From Bacteroidales bacterium (GTDB taxonomy: Bacteria > Bacteroidota > Bacteroidia > Bacteroidales > Tenuifilaceae): 64,000 nucleotides of DNA. The stretch covers positions 1-64,000 of the forward strand of contig JAFGDZ010000081.1 in the NCBI GenBank assembly GCA_016931855.1. Direction: 5' to 3'. Positions within the stretch are counted from its first letter, which is position 1; the number at the start of each line of letters is the position of its first letter. The notes under the pieces were generated by a model. It ran no database searches, was not told where the DNA came from, and saw only the letters and a program-made list of their open reading frames with translations. Position numbers and translations under genes: made by a program. Shown piece by piece: positions 2,274 to 45,812 of this stretch.

Positions 2274-2288
2274 ACCCATCACAATAAC

Positions 2289-2330
2289 ATACGCAAAGGG
2301 GCTATCCATACGGGTAGCCCCTTTGCGTAT
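2289..2330 (+). terminator. Hairpin terminator after pyrF
   Basis: A perfect 16-bp stem (2289-2304 with 2315-2330) extends inward by a few more pairs to a four-base loop. It starts 16 bases after the pyrF stop. No long T-run follows, but the stem is exceptionally stable and near-palindromic, so it may work on both strands. Confidence 0.8.
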
Positions 2331-2350
2331 GTGTCTATTTGCAAACAAAG

Positions 2351-2422
2351 TAAGTGCTGTCACTTATAGTAAAATAGGTGAAATGAGCTATTCCCTAGGA
2401 TGTAAATTTACGGCAACTTTGC
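2351..2422 (+). promoter_or_regulatory. Promoter module, copy A
   Basis: A 72-base module begins with a perfect inverted repeat TAAGTG-N4-CACTTA (2351-2366), then has GCTATT at 2387-2392, and ends in a -7-like AACTTTGC (2415-2422). Hand alignment to copy C, exactly 500 bases downstream, gives 45 of 72 identities without gaps. Identity is concentrated in the inverted repeat, around GCTATT and at the 3' end, while the spacer between GCTATT and CAACTTTGC has diverged. The arrangement suggests an operator plus promoter that fires into the short unit at 2425-2501. Confidence 0.6.
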
Positions 2423-2424
2423 AT

Positions 2425-2501
2425 CATAGTTTTTGAGTATAGTAATTGAGGCTTGAGAACAACTGCTAAGAAGCTCCTGATGCTTGCATCAGGGGCTTTT
2501 T
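2425..2501 (+). ncRNA. Putative small RNA A (promoter module plus terminator)
   Basis: About 75 bases lie between promoter module A and a strong intrinsic terminator, with no plausible ORF. The 5' part holds AGTTTTTG and the 12-mer TAGTAATTGAGG (2440-2451). The same 12-mer appears at 2672-2683 in unit B at nearly the same distance from its promoter. The start of transcription is inferred from the TTTG at 2418-2421. It could be a free small RNA or a vestigial leader of a lost gene. Confidence 0.5.
2471..2501 (+). terminator. Intrinsic terminator of unit A
   Basis: The stem 2471-2482 pairs with 2487-2498 (one T-G wobble) around a CTTG loop, and is followed by a T-run at 2497-2501. No coding gene lies between the pyrF terminator and this one, so it ends a non-coding transcript. 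Confidence 0.75.
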
Positions 2502-2587
2502 GGCATTTATGGAGGATTTGCACCATCTTTAACAGCTATACTCTTGTTGGTATAAGCCCATTGCTTCTTGGTAGAATGGAACTAGTA

Positions 2588-2657
2588 TAAGTGCTAACCC
2601 CTATTAAAAATAGCCATTTCACGCTATTCCTAGCTTTACAAATTACTTACACCTTTG
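2588..2657 (+). promoter_or_regulatory. Promoter module, copy B
   Basis: This copy keeps TAAGTG (2588-2593), GCTATT (2623-2628) and CCTTTG ending at 2657, with spacing of 35 and 31 bases against 36 and 31 in copies A and C. The right half of the inverted repeat is lost (ACCCCTA instead of CACTTA), so an operator role may be weakened here. It faces unit B at 2661-2838. Confidence 0.5.
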
Positions 2658-2660
2658 TTC

Positions 2661-2838
2661 CGAGTTTTGGTTAGTAATTGAGGTGTATAAACCTCCTTGT
2701 AAAAAAAACGGCAAGAACAGGCGTAAAGAGTTGCTCTTGATTTCTGTAACGAGAACAGCAGTAATACCCTATTTGCTTGTAATTCAACACTGCTTAAGTA
2801 GCCGGAGTATCCATTGGATGCTCCGGCTACTTGTTTTT
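2661..2838 (+). ncRNA. Putative small RNA B, paralogue of unit A
   Basis: About 175 bases run from promoter module B to a very strong terminator, with no convincing ORF. The 5' end shares AGTTTTG and the 12-mer TAGTAATTGAGG (2672-2683) with unit A. A small hairpin GAGGT-GTATAA-ACCTC follows at 2680-2695, then an A-rich stretch (2700-2708). It looks like a longer sibling of unit A; both ends are inferred. Confidence 0.45.
2796..2838 (+). terminator. Intrinsic terminator of unit B
   Basis: A 17-bp stem (2796-2812 with 2816-2832, one wobble) with a three-base loop is followed by GTTTTT. It lies 13 bases before promoter module C, so the susC promoter is insulated from unit B. Confidence 0.85.
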
Positions 2839-2850
2839 ATAGGCCTCAAG

Positions 2851-2922
2851 TAAGTGTTGGCACTTAAATCAATATAGGCGAATAACGCTATTTCAGCCAT
2901 GGGTTATACTCTACAACTTTGC
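2851..2922 (+). promoter_or_regulatory. Promoter module, copy C (susC promoter)
   Basis: It has the perfect inverted repeat TAAGTG-N4-CACTTA at 2851-2866, GCTATT at 2887-2892 and TACAACTTTGC at 2912-2922, the same layout as copy A. It is the last promoter-like signal before the SusC gene and would give a leader of about 220 bases. Confidence 0.6.
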
Positions 2923-2924
2923 AA

Positions 2925-3150
2925 GAAGAGGAAAAATGTAGGTTTTATTCTCTGCCCTTCGTTTCGCAAACAAGGTTAACAAGCGTGAAAGTTGGTTAAA
3001 AAGTACTTGTAAGTTTTTGAAACGATGCGGCATTAGTAAAACATAACGAGATAGGGTTAAGCTCTCCCAGCCACCCCCTGTCCACGATGTAAATAGCGAA
3101 GTTGGATTTTTAGCCACTTCATAATTATTAACTTCTAAACCTAATTGTTT
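2925..3150 (+). other. Long 5' leader of susC
   Basis: About 225 untranslated bases lie between the inferred transcription start and the susC ATG. I see no terminator or known riboswitch pattern. The 12-mer shared by units A and B is absent here. The length leaves room for post-transcriptional control, for example pairing with a small RNA. Confidence 0.4.
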
Positions 3151-6100
3151 ATGAAAAGGACCTTTGTGTTCGTTGTTCTGTTTGCAATGTTGGGCTTGCA
3201 GCTGGCATTTGCACAAACAAAACAGATCACAGGTACCGTTACATCGGCTGACGATGGACTTGGTATCCCTGGCGTATCTGTAATTATTAAAGGAACTACA
3301 GTTGGTACAACTACCGACATTGATGGTAAGTATTCATTAAGTGTTCCTGGTAGTGATGCAATCATCGTTTATAGCTTTATTGGGCTAAAAACCGTTGAAA
3401 TGCCTGCAACACAGAGCGTAATTAACGTTGTAATGCAGTCTGACAGCCAAGAGCTTGATGAAGTAGTAGTTGTTGGTTATGGTGTTGTAAAGAAAAGTGA
3501 GCTTACTGGTTCTGTTGCTTCAGTAAAGCCAGAAGAGCTAACAGGAAAACCTGTGGCATCGGTTGCTCAAGCGCTACAAGGAAAAGTTGCTGGGGTACAG
3601 GTTGTAAGTACTAGCGGACGTTCTGGTGATATGACTGAGATAAGCATTCGTGGTAATGGTTCTCTTTCTGCATCAAACAGCGTATTGTACGTAATCGACG
3701 GTGTGCCACAAACTTCGATGGGAAGTATTTCTCCAAATGATATAGAGAGCGTAGAAGTGCTTAAAGATGCTGCTTCTGCTGCTATTTATGGATCTCGTGC
3801 ATCAAATGGTGTTGTGCTAATTCAAACAAAGAGAGGGAAGTATTCTGCAAAATCAACTATTGATGTAGTATCTTCTCTTGGAATTCAGACTTTAGTAAAA
3901 AAGCCAACCCTACTAAATGCATCTCAGTATAAGAGGGTTCATGATGTTGCTAGGGAAAATTTCATAAGTGATATAGCCGCTGGTATCGTTGGTCCTCCTA
4001 AGGATCCAAACGTTTTAACACCCATGGCTGAATCTCCTTATGATACTGATTGGATTGATCTAGTAACAAGGGACTTTGCTAAGGTGCAAAGCCATCAGGT
4101 AAGTTTTGGTGGAGGAAATGAGGATACTAGGTTCTATCTTTCTGGGTCAATCTTCGATCAGCAAGGAATAATCAAGATGGATCAGTACCGTAAATACAGA
4201 ACCAGGGCAAATGTTGATCACAAGTTTAACAAATACGTTAAAATTGGTGTTCAGTCTTATTTCTCTGTTTCAGAGTCGGTACCAATGGCTGATGATAACA
4301 ATATGTACCAACCATGGTCTGCTGCTCACAATGCGCACCCAAATGTTAGCCCTACCGACGATAACGGTAAGTTAACTCGTGGTTCTTTTGTTAACCCTCT
4401 AATGGCATTTGAGCGACAAATAACCGACAAATGGCAGGAATTAGGTGGTTCTTTCTATTTTGATGTAACCCCAATTTCTGGATTGGTATGGCATTCAGCA
4501 TATTCTGGTGATGTTGCTGTAAATAGATACAATAGATTTGATGCCCCAAATACCAAGCGTGGTGAGAATGGTGGTGGTGCTCCTACTGGTCACGGTTATT
4601 ACTCTACTGAGAATAATAGAAGTTTCCAAATTGAGAATACTATAACCTATTCAGGAAATCTGTTTGAACAGAAACTACGTTATTCTATCTTAGGAGGACA
4701 CTCTTTCCAAAAATCATTGTTTGAGGATTCATATGTTGCTGGAGAAAACTTCCCATCTAATGATTTATCGTGGTTAACTTCGGCTGGTTTAATTAACATG
4801 GGTAGAAGCTATACTTATAGCACCGCTCTTGAATCATATTTTTCTCGCGTACAGTTATCTTGGAATGAGCGTTATATGTTAATGTTCTCTATTCGTGGTG
4901 ATGGTTCGTCTAAATTCAATAAGGATAATAGATGGGGCTTCTTCCCTGCCGCTTCTATAGGTTGGAATGTGTCTAAGGAGGACTTTTTCCAGTCATCTTT
5001 AATTAGCAACCTTAAATTAAGGGCTTCTTATGGTTTAACTGGAAACCAGTCAGGCATTAGTTATGCTACAGGATTAAACCTACTTGGTTCTGGTTCAGAT
5101 TTCAATCACAACGGTAATCCAGGTTTAGGCACAACCGACCTATATAACCCAGATCTTCATTGGGAGAAGGGTTACTCAATGAATGCTGGGTTTGACTTAG
5201 GTATGTTTAACAATAGGTTAAACCTGATTGTTGACGTTTACAGCAAAACATCTAAGGATCTTCTGTATAGAACCAATGTGCCTCAAGAAAGTGGTTACCC
5301 CACAATGATGTCTAATGATGGTGGTGAGATCTCTAATAAAGGTATCGAGGTTACTGCCGACTTCAGCATTATAAAGACTAAAGAGCTAAGTTGGTCTATC
5401 AATGCTAACTTCTCATACAACCATAATGAGGTAGTGAAGTTAGGTGCAGCCAATGGTTATTATGTTACTAGCTTTGCATCTGTTGTTATGGAGGGAGAAA
5501 GCCTTGGTTCTTTCTACTTCCCAGAAGCAATTGGTGTAGCAAGCAAGCCTTATGAGTATAAAGACAAGGACGGTAACGTTGTTAGCACTGTTCAGCCAGG
5601 CGATATGATTTATGCCGACCTAAACGGTGATGGTTTAATTGATGACAAGGATCGTAAGGTGTTCTCTGGCGCCATTGCTCCAATTTATGGTGGCTTTGGT
5701 ACAAGAGTAGCTTATAAAGGATTTGATTTAGCAATAATCTCTCAGTACTCTATTGGGAAGAAGGTTTACGCTATGTATAAAGAAGATGCCTTAAACGGTG
5801 GAGCTGTAGGTAGTCCTTCTTTTGGTAATAACATGATTGATGATATGCTAGACTATTGGACTCCAACCAATACGAATGCCGCAAATCCAAGACCTCATCT
5901 AAGTTCAGAGATTTCTGCTTGGAACTTAAAACGTTCATCTCGTTTCTTAGAAGATGCCGATTATTTGAGAGTTTCTGAGATTACTCTTGGTTATACCTTT
6001 ACCTCTAACTTAAAGCTACCTTACGTTAAGAATTGCCGGTTATATGTTCAGGCACGTAACCCATTTACTTTTACTAAGTACAAAGGCCTAGACCCAGAGG

Positions 6101-6210
6101 TTCAGTACATTGATCCAGATCGTGAAGACAATAAGGTTTCTGCAGGGTACGATAATAACGGTATTCCTAATATGAAAACCTTCTCTGTTGGATTAAATCT
6201 TAACTTCTAA
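3151..6210 (+). CDS. SusC/RagA-family TonB-dependent outer membrane transporter
   Basis: It forms the outer membrane barrel that imports oligosaccharides or peptides captured by its SusD-like lid, powered by TonB. From the ATG at 3151 (an in-frame TTG at 3145 is less likely) it has 1019 residues: signal peptide 1-21 ending LAFA, a carboxypeptidase-regulatory-like domain at about 26-105, a TonB plug at about 110-225 with the typical VVVGYG and SNGVVLIQTKRG segments, then the barrel ending in aromatic-rich NLNF. It is followed after 12 bases by the SusD partner. The neighbourhood holds no glycoside hydrolases, so the substrate cannot be predicted. Confidence 0.95.
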   Translation: MKRTFVFVVLFAMLGLQLAFAQTKQITGTVTSADDGLGIPGVSVIIKGTTVGTTTDIDGKYSLSVPGSDAIIVYSFIGLKTVEMPATQSVINVVMQSDSQELDEVVVVGYGVVKKSELTGSVASVKPEELTGKPVASVAQALQGKVAGVQVVSTSGRSGDMTEISIRGNGSLSASNSVLYVIDGVPQTSMGSISPNDIESVEVLKDAASAAIYGSRASNGVVLIQTKRGKYSAKSTIDVVSSLGIQTLVKKPTLLNASQYKRVHDVARENFISDIAAGIVGPPKDPNVLTPMAESPYDTDWIDLVTRDFAKVQSHQVSFGGGNEDTRFYLSGSIFDQQGIIKMDQYRKYRTRANVDHKFNKYVKIGVQSYFSVSESVPMADDNNMYQPWSAAHNAHPNVSPTDDNGKLTRGSFVNPLMAFERQITDKWQELGGSFYFDVTPISGLVWHSAYSGDVAVNRYNRFDAPNTKRGENGGGAPTGHGYYSTENNRSFQIENTITYSGNLFEQKLRYSILGGHSFQKSLFEDSYVAGENFPSNDLSWLTSAGLINMGRSYTYSTALESYFSRVQLSWNERYMLMFSIRGDGSSKFNKDNRWGFFPAASIGWNVSKEDFFQSSLISNLKLRASYGLTGNQSGISYATGLNLLGSGSDFNHNGNPGLGTTDLYNPDLHWEKGYSMNAGFDLGMFNNRLNLIVDVYSKTSKDLLYRTNVPQESGYPTMMSNDGGEISNKGIEVTADFSIIKTKELSWSINANFSYNHNEVVKLGAANGYYVTSFASVVMEGESLGSFYFPEAIGVASKPYEYKDKDGNVVSTVQPGDMIYADLNGDGLIDDKDRKVFSGAIAPIYGGFGTRVAYKGFDLAIISQYSIGKKVYAMYKEDALNGGAVGSPSFGNNMIDDMLDYWTPTNTNAANPRPHLSSEISAWNLKRSSRFLEDADYLRVSEITLGYTFTSNLKLPYVKNCRLYVQARNPFTFTKYKGLDPEVQYIDPDREDNKVSAGYDNNGIPNMKTFSVGLNLNF

Positions 6211-6222
6211 ACTACAAATAGG

Positions 6223-7410
6223 ATGAAAACAAATAAAATACTTTGCCTCTTTTTGGGACTTTCTTTACTTGGCTTTTCTTCTTGCGAAGATGAGTTAAAT
6301 ATCAGGTCTGAGGCATCTCTTGATGCAACAACAACTCTATCTACAGAGGACGTGGACAAGTTGTTGACAGCTGTTTACAATCGGATGATGGAACCATCTA
6401 GTTATGCTTACTTTAACATTATGACCACTGAGATAATGTCTGATAACTATAGACCTATCAAGTTCCAGTGGTTTCAAGTGCAAAACCTATACGAGCATAA
6501 TGTTCCTGCTGATGATATTCTTTTGAGCTATGGCTACTTTGGATATTTCAGAGCCATTGAGCGTATTCATACAGTTATGAGAGTTCCTTCTGCGTCAACA
6601 GCTCAAATAGCTATGGCTAGGTATTGTAGAGCCCTAAGCTACTTGCGTTTATACGACAGTTTTGAAAGAGTACCATTAGTAGATGAGAATTACGATAATA
6701 AGCCAATTGCTCCCTCTTCAAAGGAGGATGTACTTGACTTTATTGTTAAAGATTTAGAGTTTGCTATGGCAAATAGCCCTGCTTTTAATGCTAAAAATGC
6801 AGAAGTTAGTCAGTGCACGCCAACACAGGAAGCTGCAAAGGCTTTACTTGCTAGGGTGTATAGGATACAAGGCGATCTACCTTCTGCTGGGGCACTTGCC
6901 GAAGAGTTAATTACTTCTGGTAAATTCTCTCTAGCGGTTAATCCTTCAGAGTATAGAGGGGAAACCATTATGCGTTTTGCAGGAAATAAAGGAGAAGAGA
7001 ACGGTAGTTGGGGATGGATTATGAGTCCTCAAGCTGCAACTTGGAACTGTTTTGCTGCAGCAGATGAACTAGTTGCTTTAGTTAAGGGTGATGATACCCG
7101 TGCTAGTTTATTTAGATACAACACTGAGCACGGAGCTTATTTCTCAACAAAGTATACCACTGACGATGATTCTGATTTATTAGTATCAAGAATTGCAGAG
7201 ATGTATTTGATTTCTGCTGAAGCGGGTAATGCCAATAGACTAACCGAGTTCCAATCAGTTAGAAAATCTGCGCTAGCTCTTGATCAGGAACGTCGTTTAG
7301 AACTGTCTTTTGAATGGGTGCGCTGGCAAGATATGAAACTAGCAGGAGAAACTTATGTTCTTCCTTACCCTCAACGAGCGGTTGACTCCAATCATCTTTT
7401 GAAAAATTAG
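6223..7410 (+). CDS. SusD/RagB-like nutrient-binding outer membrane lipoprotein
   Basis: This is the surface lipoprotein that caps the SusC channel and binds substrate. The signal peptide ends at lipobox Cys21 (GFSSC). The N-terminal SusD-like region starts with the helix LSTEDVDKLLTAVYNRM. The C-terminal part has the family signature ERRLELSFEWVRWQDMK. At 395 residues it is short for the family (usually about 450-600), with the middle substrate-binding insertions apparently trimmed. It is coupled to susC and ends at a strong terminator. Confidence 0.92.
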   Translation: MKTNKILCLFLGLSLLGFSSCEDELNIRSEASLDATTTLSTEDVDKLLTAVYNRMMEPSSYAYFNIMTTEIMSDNYRPIKFQWFQVQNLYEHNVPADDILLSYGYFGYFRAIERIHTVMRVPSASTAQIAMARYCRALSYLRLYDSFERVPLVDENYDNKPIAPSSKEDVLDFIVKDLEFAMANSPAFNAKNAEVSQCTPTQEAAKALLARVYRIQGDLPSAGALAEELITSGKFSLAVNPSEYRGETIMRFAGNKGEENGSWGWIMSPQAATWNCFAAADELVALVKGDDTRASLFRYNTEHGAYFSTKYTTDDDSDLLVSRIAEMYLISAEAGNANRLTEFQSVRKSALALDQERRLELSFEWVRWQDMKLAGETYVLPYPQRAVDSNHLLKN

Positions 7411-7667: not shown

Positions 7668-9479
7668 ATGTGTAAAATTAATTCTAGATCCAGTTATCTA
7701 ATTGTTTTTTTACTACTATTTGTTTTCTCTGGCAAACCTGCAAAAAGTACACCCTTTGATGTAAAGAATCCTCCTTTTGTCTTCCCTTTTGCACAAATGT
7801 CGCAAAGCGATTTGAGTGGGGGCGGTTACTCTGAACTGGATTCTACTAATCAGTTACAAATTATAAGAGAGCATTCCGTACTAAAGGCTATTGCTGACCT
7901 TAGGTATAACGATGCCCTTGCTTACTTATATACCTGCTTGGCTATTTCTGGTGACGAGAAGGATACATTGGGCTTACAGATGGCCTACTCTTATCTTTCA
8001 ATTGTAGCTCAGGTATCAGGGAATACAGATGAATCGCTCAGATTTGCTTTGATGTGTGACTCCCTTGAGAACACAAAGAGCAACAAAGAGTATCATGTTG
8101 CATTTAAGGCAATATTGGGTAGCGCCCTATACTTTACCGGAGATACTTCCAGAGCTTATGAACTCCTTTACCCAATATCTGAGGTGGTTCCTAAGGGGGC
8201 TGAACTTAGCTATATCCATATTTATGCGCTAAATACTTTAGGGCAGCTGTACCTTGCTGAGAAAGACTTAGACTCTGCCGAACTCGTATTTAAATTGGTT
8301 GCCGAGAGTGGGAACCGTATTGCAAAGGGAATACAGATTGATGCTAACTTTAGCATTGCCAAAATATACTTTAAAAGGCGGCAACCTAGGGTTGCTCATT
8401 CCTACCTTCAGGTAGCACACGACGATGCGGTAAAAACCTCCAACCACCATTTCCTGTCAAGAATATACACTTTAAAGGCGCGCTACCTTCTTACGGCTAA
8501 AAAGTACAAAGGATCTGCGCTTTACTTTGCTAAGGCCGATAGCGTTGTCACAATTGCAAATAGTAAGAATACTAGCGAGGGGGTTAAGTCGTTAATAGCC
8601 AATTATAAAGCGTCCAATAGGGAGCGCAAAATGATTATTGAGAAGCAACGAGCCGAGATTGATAATCTTAAGCTATCTAGAAAAGTAATGCGGTTGTCCT
8701 TTTACCTTCTTTCCCTTATTCTTCTTTTGAGCCTTGTTGCTATAGGCTTTATGATTTACGATAGGAGGAAGGTTAGCTTTATCAACTCACTACTAAAGGA
8801 AATTGCCGAGAAGAAGCAGGATCTGCTATCAAGTTTCGTTCGTGCACAGGAGTCTGAGCGTAAGCGGTTTGCCCGCGATTTGCACGATGGTATCGGAAGC
8901 ATGATTGCGCTGCTTAAAATGTCCCTTGCCTACAAAATATCTAAACAGGAGATGGTATCAATTGCGGAGCAGGAGGTTTTTCTTCGTCAAGTTGATGATA
9001 TCTACCTTAATCTACGCGACGTTGCCTTTAACCTTATGCCCATTGTACTTGTTAAGGAAGGGTTAAACGCTGCTTGCAGCGCTCTTGTAGAGAGGCTTAA
9101 TGTGGTAAACAATGTATTCTCCTTTAATGCCTTGACTTTGAGTTCGCGCTTGCCATCCGACATAGAGTATGCTCTATTTAGGGTTACACAGGAGATTACC
9201 ACAAATATTGTTAAGCATGCTAACGCCTCGTGGGCACTAGTAGAGTTTACAAATGATAGCTCTACTATTGGGCTTCAAATCTCCTATGAGGGCAAGGGTT
9301 TTAATCCCGAGGAACTTAAAACATCAACTGGTTATGGTTGGCGTAACATTAGGGTTAGGCTGGAGCAGGTTGGTGGTAGCATTGTTGTTGATTCGGCTCA
9401 AGGGGAATCCGTAACTACCTATATTATAGAGGTTCCATTTTCCGGTAGAAGAATAAGTTCTTATCTTGCTGTAAACTAA
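7668..9479 (+). CDS. TPR-containing sensor histidine kinase, NarX/HisKA_3 type
   Basis: This is the sensor of a two-component pair. An N-terminal hydrophobic segment (about 10-22) exports a sensor region of tetratricopeptide-like helices to about residue 320. A transmembrane segment follows at about 344-363, then a cytoplasmic HisKA_3 domain with phosphoacceptor His406 in RDLHDG, and a HATPase domain with an N-box-like EITTNIVKHAN and a G-box GYGWRNIRVRL. This architecture is common in Bacteroidota. The response regulator lies 61 bases downstream. The signal it senses is unknown; the adjacent susCD operon is a possible target. Confidence 0.92.
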   Translation: MCKINSRSSYLIVFLLLFVFSGKPAKSTPFDVKNPPFVFPFAQMSQSDLSGGGYSELDSTNQLQIIREHSVLKAIADLRYNDALAYLYTCLAISGDEKDTLGLQMAYSYLSIVAQVSGNTDESLRFALMCDSLENTKSNKEYHVAFKAILGSALYFTGDTSRAYELLYPISEVVPKGAELSYIHIYALNTLGQLYLAEKDLDSAELVFKLVAESGNRIAKGIQIDANFSIAKIYFKRRQPRVAHSYLQVAHDDAVKTSNHHFLSRIYTLKARYLLTAKKYKGSALYFAKADSVVTIANSKNTSEGVKSLIANYKASNRERKMIIEKQRAEIDNLKLSRKVMRLSFYLLSLILLLSLVAIGFMIYDRRKVSFINSLLKEIAEKKQDLLSSFVRAQESERKRFARDLHDGIGSMIALLKMSLAYKISKQEMVSIAEQEVFLRQVDDIYLNLRDVAFNLMPIVLVKEGLNAACSALVERLNVVNNVFSFNALTLSSRLPSDIEYALFRVTQEITTNIVKHANASWALVEFTNDSSTIGLQISYEGKGFNPEELKTSTGYGWRNIRVRLEQVGGSIVVDSAQGESVTTYIIEVPFSGRRISSYLAVN

Positions 9480-9540
9480 TTTATTATAGTTATACTTTTA
9501 GGCTGTTATTCAATAATACTTAAGTAAGAAAAAACATGCA

Positions 9541-10179
9541 ATGGAAAAGAAGCAGGTAAAAATAGCGCTGGTTGACGATCACGTCCTGTTTGCCCAGGGT
9601 TTACAGTCTATGCTCACCTCATGCGGATATGTGGTGGTTGGTGTAGGTGCTAACGTTGAGCAGGGTTATTGCTTGGTTAAAAACAATGCTGTTGATATTG
9701 TTTTTTGCGACGTGCAAATGCCCAAAGAGGGTGGTGGCATTCTGGTTGAAAGGCTTCGTGCGGAGTTTCCCCGGGTTCGCATTGCCATGCTAAGCATGTG
9801 CGAGGATGCTGCAACTATCCGCGAGATGTTAGACCTTGGCATTGATGCTTACCTTGTTAAATCATCAACAATAGATACTATCCAGCGGGCTATTGCTTAT
9901 ATACTTGAGGGTAAGCGTTATATATCAGAGGAGATTGCCTCTATTCTGATGGAAAAAACTGAGTCTAAATCCAGCAGAGCGCTTCTTACTGCTCGCGAAA
10001 AGGAGATTCTTAGGCTTATGCTAAATGAGCTGGCCAACAAGGAAATTGCCGATAAGCTGTTCATTAGTGAGCGTACCGTTGAGGCGCACCGTCGAAATAT
10101 TTACCGTAAAACCAATACCTCATCCATTATTGGGTTAATGAAGTGGTCCGTAGAGCATAATGTTATAGATTTGCACTAG
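9541..10179 (+). CDS. NarL/LuxR-family response regulator
   Basis: It has an N-terminal receiver domain with acidic residues Asp12-Asp13, phosphoacceptor Asp57 and conserved Lys107, then a LuxR-type helix-turn-helix at about 145-205 (LTAREKEILRLM, SERTVEAHRRNI). The 212-residue length is normal. It follows the kinase gene and is presumably its partner. Its targets are not shown by the sequence; the TAAGTG-N4-CACTTA palindromes near susC are one untested possibility. The gene converges on oxyR with 27 bases between them. Confidence 0.93.
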   Translation: MEKKQVKIALVDDHVLFAQGLQSMLTSCGYVVVGVGANVEQGYCLVKNNAVDIVFCDVQMPKEGGGILVERLRAEFPRVRIAMLSMCEDAATIREMLDLGIDAYLVKSSTIDTIQRAIAYILEGKRYISEEIASILMEKTESKSSRALLTAREKEILRLMLNELANKEIADKLFISERTVEAHRRNIYRKTNTSSIIGLMKWSVEHNVIDLH

Positions 10180-45314: not shown

Positions 45315-45812
45315 ATGGAACAAGTGAACACCGAAGTAAGGTATGCTGGTTTTTGGCTTCGCTTTGCGGCATACCTAATAGACAGCTTAGTGATGTCTGC
45401 AGGAGGATTGATAATAGCAATCCCATTAATTTTTGGAATTGTAGGCTTTGCTGTAGGGTTAGATGATATAGATCGTCCCGAAGATTTTCTTGAGAGCGGC
45501 AAGTGGATGTACTTAGGTGGTATTATAGGGTTAATCCTTTTGGCTTCGCTTTTGGGCTTGGTTATGGGATGGTTGTACTATGCGCTGATGGAGTCATCTA
45601 AGCATGGTGGTACCTTAGGGAAAATTGCAGTAGGCATTAAGGTTGTTGATATGAACGGCAACAGGGTGTCTTTTGGCAAGGCTACAGGGCGGTATTTCTC
45701 TAGAATTGTTACCAATATGACCTTTTTGGTTGGTTTCATTATGGCTGGGTTTACCGATAAAAAACAAGCGTTGCATGATATAATAGCAAGCTGCCTAGTG
45801 GTTATTCGTTAA
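45315..45812 (+). CDS. RDD family membrane protein
   Basis: The 165 residues begin with YAGFWLRFAAYLIDSLVM, which carries the Arg and Asp of the RDD signature, and have three or four transmembrane segments (about 20-48, 68-95 and 132-150). The segment GGTLGKIAVGIKVVDMNG is characteristic. The family function is unclear, with transport proposed for some members. Two CDGSH iron-sulfur genes follow. Confidence 0.9.
   Translation: MEQVNTEVRYAGFWLRFAAYLIDSLVMSAGGLIIAIPLIFGIVGFAVGLDDIDRPEDFLESGKWMYLGGIIGLILLASLLGLVMGWLYYALMESSKHGGTLGKIAVGIKVVDMNGNRVSFGKATGRYFSRIVTNMTFLVGFIMAGFTDKKQALHDIIASCLVVIR

Follow-up and report, generated by a model that had tools for sequence, protein, structure and literature searches.

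Two putative small RNA units sharing a promoter module with a susCD operon in a Tenuifilaceae genome and their predicted pairing with a second susC

Described small RNAs acting on outer-membrane importers

Bacteroidota possess many SusCD importers and set their nutrient preferences by changing from one to another. Post-transcriptional shutdown between such loci is a largely open subject, of which FopS is the main worked example that we found. The FopS/GibS small RNAs of Bacteroides thetaiotaomicron are paralogs, each with a targeting region at the 5' end and a terminator hairpin (PMC11697453, PMC7366714); FopS has a conserved seed sequence, R1, in common with GibS. FopS is present in 14 copies with canonical promoters and responds to bile salts (PMC11697453, PMC7366714), and the 5' end of FopS-10 pairs with the translation initiation region of a susC gene, blocking its translation (PMC11697453). 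DonS and other PUL antisense RNAs are small RNAs located beside a susC operon that repress a susC operon (PMC11697453, PMC10994844). OmrA and OmrB of Escherichia coli are a duplicated pair encoded side by side, alike at the 5' end and different in the middle; they are switched on by a two-component system and hit mRNAs of outer-membrane receptors, including fecA and fepA (PMC12692685).

The DNA analysed here, referred to as the window, is a stretch of 64,000 nucleotides (positions 1 to 64,000 of contig JAFGDZ010000081.1, assembly GCA_016931855.1) from a Bacteroidales bacterium of the Tenuifilaceae. It contains two putative small RNA units, A and B (Table 1). Like the FopS/GibS RNAs, they appear to be paralogs in which the targeting region is at the 5' end and a terminator hairpin is present, and, as in FopS, the 5' region is complementary to the translation initiation region of a susC gene. 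Unlike FopS, they are two tandem copies that share their promoter with a susCD operon and have one dominant predicted target, and their targeting regions are partly paired in the predicted folds. A Bacteroides genome contains 12-15 FopS paralogs, whereas the element is carried here by A and B only. With this many-copy feature absent, we would not file A and B as FopS; the likeness is one of proposed function. A cmscan search of positions 2275-3170 at E up to 10 listed no FopS or GibS entry, although the library may lack that model.

The arrangement of A and B, adjacent and apparently duplicated with a common 5' end and different remaining parts, recalls OmrA/OmrB, and control by a two-component system with action on importer mRNAs would be the counterpart proposed here. 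However, the two pairs are unrelated in sequence and belong to different phyla, and the Omr RNAs, which use Hfq and act on many targets, are alike at the 3' end as well. The Omr activator is of the OmpR type, whereas the putative activator of A and B is of the LuxR type. No Rfam match to OmrA/OmrB exceeded the gathering score, and none so named was listed at E up to 10. DonS differs in lying opposite its own target, while A and B have the orientation of the neighbouring operon, and the susC that they match lies on a different contig.

Organization of the intergenic region and its promoter modules

Units A and B are situated between pyrF and the susC gene of the window, in a region with three homologous promoter modules in tandem. 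The module common to A, B and susC comprises TAAGTGnnnnCACTTA, an AATAG...CTATT repeat, exactly 25 bases and TTTG. With up to three mismatches allowed, a genome-wide search recovers only the copies before A and before the window susC, the copy of B being more degenerate. These units and their shared promoter can be read directly from the DNA.

Table 1. Features of the intergenic region and of the adjacent susCD and two-component system genes (window positions)
Feature	Position	Strand	Remarks
Hairpin terminator 3' of pyrF	2287..2332	+	strong; upstream boundary
Promoter module of A	2351..2392	+	TAAGTGCTGTCACTTA and AATAG...CTATT inverted repeats, 25 bases 5' of TTTG
-7 element of A, TTTG	2418..2421	+	from sequence
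Putative small RNA A, ~80 nt	2425..2508	+	ends predicted from promoter and hairpin
Targeting region of A, AGTTTTTGAGTATAGTAATTGAGG	2428..2451	+	near-perfect antisense of positions -30 to -8 of the contig 57 susC
Terminator-like hairpin of A	2464..2505	+	
Promoter module of B	2588..2628	+	degenerate, internally one base shorter; 25-base distance to TTTG kept
-7 element of B, TTTG	2654..2657	+	from sequence
Putative small RNA B, ~175 nt	2660..2838	+	ends predicted
Targeting region of B, AGTTTTGGTTAGTAATTGAGGT	2663..2684	+	15-nt unbroken match to the contig 57 susC leader
Terminator of B	2795..2838	+	
Promoter module of the window susC	2851..2892	+	layout as at A and B
Window susC	3151..6210	+	1019 aa from ATG; co-controlled, not the main predicted target
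Short susD-like gene	6223..7410	+	395 aa; weak SusD domain scores
TPR sensor histidine kinase	7668..9479	+	HisKA_3, HATPase_c; proposed sensor
LuxR/NarL-type response regulator	9541..10179	+	proposed activator of the module

Each unit begins 6-7 bases past TTTG with AGTTTT (2428-2433 in A, 2663-2668 in B), runs on to the 12-mer TAGTAATTGAGG (2440-2451 and 2672-2683, with no further exact copy in the window) and closes in a terminator-like hairpin. An earlier, sequence-only reading of this DNA had placed the 12-mer 18-22 bases from TTTG, preceded by AGTTTT, and had recognized a promoter module before each unit. Both statements hold: the start-to-start distances are 22 (A) and 18 (B) bases with AGTTTT preceding in both, and the two units lie downstream of copies of the module also present before susC. 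Since the exact 12-mer is rare, chance is implausible as the source of two copies 232 bases apart in an equal place after related promoters.

In the predicted fold of A, the loop of a 5' hairpin holds the greater part of the seed, and there is a long hairpin with an internal U-run (z -6.4), while B ends with an 18-bp hairpin and a T-run (z -6.1 for the whole unit). The earlier reading had attributed a strong intrinsic terminator to both units; the terminator-like hairpin of A was not flagged by a simple terminator scan. The mean unpaired probability of the seed is 0.76 in A and 0.55 in B, the remaining targeting region being partly paired. Transcription of both units is probable from these elements. 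They were also correctly described as devoid of ORFs, in that the + strand of A and B contains no ATG-started ORF of at least 20 aa; the only + strand frames, of 20, 23, 45 and 56 codons, start with TTG or GTG. No Rfam family reached the gathering score over A and B, and weak matches to microRNA families were rejected as hairpin artefacts.

A DNA search did not find unit A in 59 other genomes, and the A/B pair was found in no relative; nor was a relative found in which protein genes replace the units, as would be expected if these were eroded genes. The core idea of the earlier reading, a duplicated regulatory RNA pair with a common functional 5' end and distinct 3' parts, is supported. On the - strand of the window at 2395-2451, opposite the start of A, a leader-like sequence precedes ATGATGCAAAG and a frame of some ten codons, which is probably a chance occurrence.

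The synteny of the region 3' of pyrF is not kept in most family members. Among the 27 family genomes, the module occurs in one other, designated G021, and at no more than one mismatch it was found in none of the other 392 genomes of the order-wide sample. One of the G021 copies is located directly 3' of pyrF, as in the window, on a contig that ends about 130 bases further on (G021:C11; L208/L214). Another lies 5' of a susC, and a third, with three mismatches and the 25-base distance kept, is 5' of the next susC in the cluster.

The only close full-length relative of the window kinase among the family genomes is also encoded in G021 (E 9e-73; 2e-37 in the next genome). It is located on the contig and strand of the module-susC cluster, which contains both susC genes preceded by the module, and the next gene encodes a response regulator with 52% identity to that of the window. 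No kinase relative was found at E 1e-60 in 148 other genomes of the order. Because the kinase and regulator genes (7668-10179) occur together with the module both in the window genome and in G021, their products are likely to control it, presumably through binding of the regulator. Such a pair of a kinase and a LuxR-type regulator is thus found together with the long two-repeat promoter module in two genera, in the vicinity of susCD genes. The G021 region concerned (L229, G021:C10) also contains genes for S58 and M3 peptidases, with a GH20 hexosaminidase gene nearby; the peptidases hint at peptides.

Predicted pairing with a susC gene on contig 57

Exact search of the whole 4.08-Mb genome revealed four copies of TAGTAATTGAGG: those in A and B, one in a coding sequence (C22:38550, in a gene that reads like thymidylate kinase) and one on the antisense strand of the start of a susC gene on contig 57 (C57). 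The bipartite element AGTTTT-N0-8-TAGTAATTGAGG has three sites in 393 genomes of the order, all of them in this genome: A, B and, in antisense orientation, C57:52102-52124, which corresponds to positions -30 to -8 relative to the start codon of the C57 susC. Of 41 near matches to the 12-mer elsewhere, 30 were read in context; most are within coding sequences and none resembles a promoter-terminator unit.

Possible targets were ranked among 1330 candidate start regions of 900 genes, covering ~1.26 Mb of 4.08 Mb (~30% of the genome). The C57 susC is ranked first of 900 for both A (-28.0 kcal/mol) and B (-27.4), with runners-up at -23.6 and -23.8, respectively. In each of the two predicted folds, part of the targeting region is paired, and its opening costs 8-10 kcal/mol; with the opening cost of both RNAs subtracted, this gene still ranks first, at -15.0 (A) and -12.9 (B). 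The C57 site itself is mostly unpaired in the predicted fold of the mRNA, except for the last six positions, which are mostly paired. The core of the A duplex comprises 12 pairs, a one-base bulge, 4 pairs, a mismatch and 7 pairs, and the B duplex an unbroken run of 15 pairs and about 6 more.

The pairing of the flanks beyond the 12-mer was equalled by 7 of 5000 shuffles for A and 178 of 5000 for B, and the 15-nt run of B was reached by 13 of 3000 intergenic controls. Since its flanks also pair, the evidence for A goes beyond the shared 12-mer alone. Shuffled sequences had an equally good partner among the sampled starts in 1 of 80 cases for A and in 5 of 60 for B; duplex energy by itself is a reason for caution and not decisive. 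Caution is likewise called for in that the target search was made post hoc, and the common target of A and B does not amount to two independent observations, because the 12-mer is shared. The strongest argument is the joint one, namely that a rare element of two co-promoted units beside one susC matches the start of another susC. This antisense match and the identity of the matched gene are evident from the sequence, which in this respect points to a distant nutrient-uptake gene, one of the two targets suggested earlier. The other, the leader of the neighbouring susC, is a weak candidate, ranked 226th of 900 for A and 57th (-18.3) for B. For either RNA, the remaining susC genes in the sample are placed 188th or lower.

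The operon on C57, in which susC is the leading gene, codes for SusC, SusD-like, BT_2262-like and lipid-binding proteins. The closest solved relatives of its products are BT_2264 (the best for SusC), BT_2263 and BT_2261, which are described as holding oligopeptide ligands (PMC7782687). The C57 SusC is peptide-importer-like, its operon resembling that of the oligopeptide importer BT_2264-2261. The gene lacks the module and has its own promoter of the -7 type, TATTTTTG, 108 bases 5' of the start codon, which looks like an ordinary -7 promoter. The C57 and window SusC proteins are paralogs, very similar in the N-terminal part and 29% identical overall. A close relative of the C57 target is present in only one other family genome, where its start is lost at a contig end.

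In a search over 1.26 Mb for other RNAs antisense to other susC leaders, no promoter-terminator layout was recognised. Matches near C57:45460 were rejected as antisense RNA, being a sense-strand copy of a leader motif 5' of mutS. This motif, AAACCTAAAATTT (C57 ~45460-45510; L190 5459-5510), is also located just before several susC-like start codons and may be a translation-enhancing leader.

Proposed mechanism and alternative explanations

We propose, with moderate confidence, that A and B are trans-acting small RNAs controlled together with the window susCD by the two-component system, and that they block translation of the C57 susC, resulting in an importer swap. Through its sensor kinase and LuxR-type response regulator, this system would bind at both inverted repeats of the module and so switch on A, B and susCD, three transcripts in all. 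The 5' end that the two RNAs have in common would then pair with nucleotides -30 to -8 of the C57 susC mRNA, and the duplex, extending over the ribosome landing site, would block translation. The presumed purpose of this activation and repression is the exchange of one outer-membrane importer for another.

Units A and B could instead be duplication remnants of the susC promoter region, giving short terminated transcripts without function. Three homologous tandem modules, the degenerate state of the B module and the absence of A from 59 other genomes would agree with such an origin; we nevertheless consider it unlikely, as the shared sequence matches a distant susC start and not the neighbouring leader, the match of A reaches past the shared part, and a terminator hairpin is kept in each unit. 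About as unlikely is a role in feedback or general repression, in which A and B would be directed chiefly at the leader of the neighbouring susC or at a broad range of susC leaders. The ranks of the window susC for A and of the other sampled susC genes for both RNAs speak against this, although B pairs moderately with the neighbouring leader and FopS RNAs of B. thetaiotaomicron bind several susC starts (PMC11697453).

The occurrence of one bipartite sequence at three places might also reflect a protein-binding site in DNA, one that follows the promoters of A and B and precedes the C57 susC in inverted orientation. This explanation seems very improbable: the element stands at the transcript start in A and B, but in C57 it is inverted and lies deep within the leader, immediately 5' of the start codon, a geometry which antisense pairing explains without further assumptions. 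It is more improbable still that the RNAs pair with the C57 leader yet activate it, for example by opening structure. The leader does have some predicted structure, involving the last six positions of the site, but most of the site is predicted to be open, and a duplex at -30 to -8 would lie over the area where the ribosome lands, the situation in FopS targets that are repressed. As for very short peptides, the TTG- and GTG-started frames could in principle encode them; with no ATG start, and with the 45- and 56-codon frames traversing the terminator hairpins, this is barely credible.

If the proposed repression by A and B is true, one signal would turn an importer on and a rival off via two small RNAs, outside Bacteroides and with a single dominant predicted target, and the short pairing would be testable by compensatory mutation. 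The layout of OmrA/OmrB, duplicated and apparently two-component-controlled RNAs acting on TonB-dependent importers, would then occur in another phylum. More tentatively, the locus may be a case of a SusCD system with its own twin trans-acting RNAs, which under the same signal-dependent promoter shut off a rival SusC, so that importers are exchanged within one regulon, an arrangement that would have arisen independently of OmrA/OmrB and FopS.

A second candidate target of the two RNAs is located at G000:C25:23430 (L200 3430-4342), where the leader sequence immediately 5' of a start codon, CCAAACCTCATTTACTAAGCTTATG, matches the seed at all but one position. Two RRM_1 proteins, encoded at C21:38271-38483 and C22:42975-43184, are candidate RNA-binding partners similar to RbpB, the RRM-1 protein that binds FopS.
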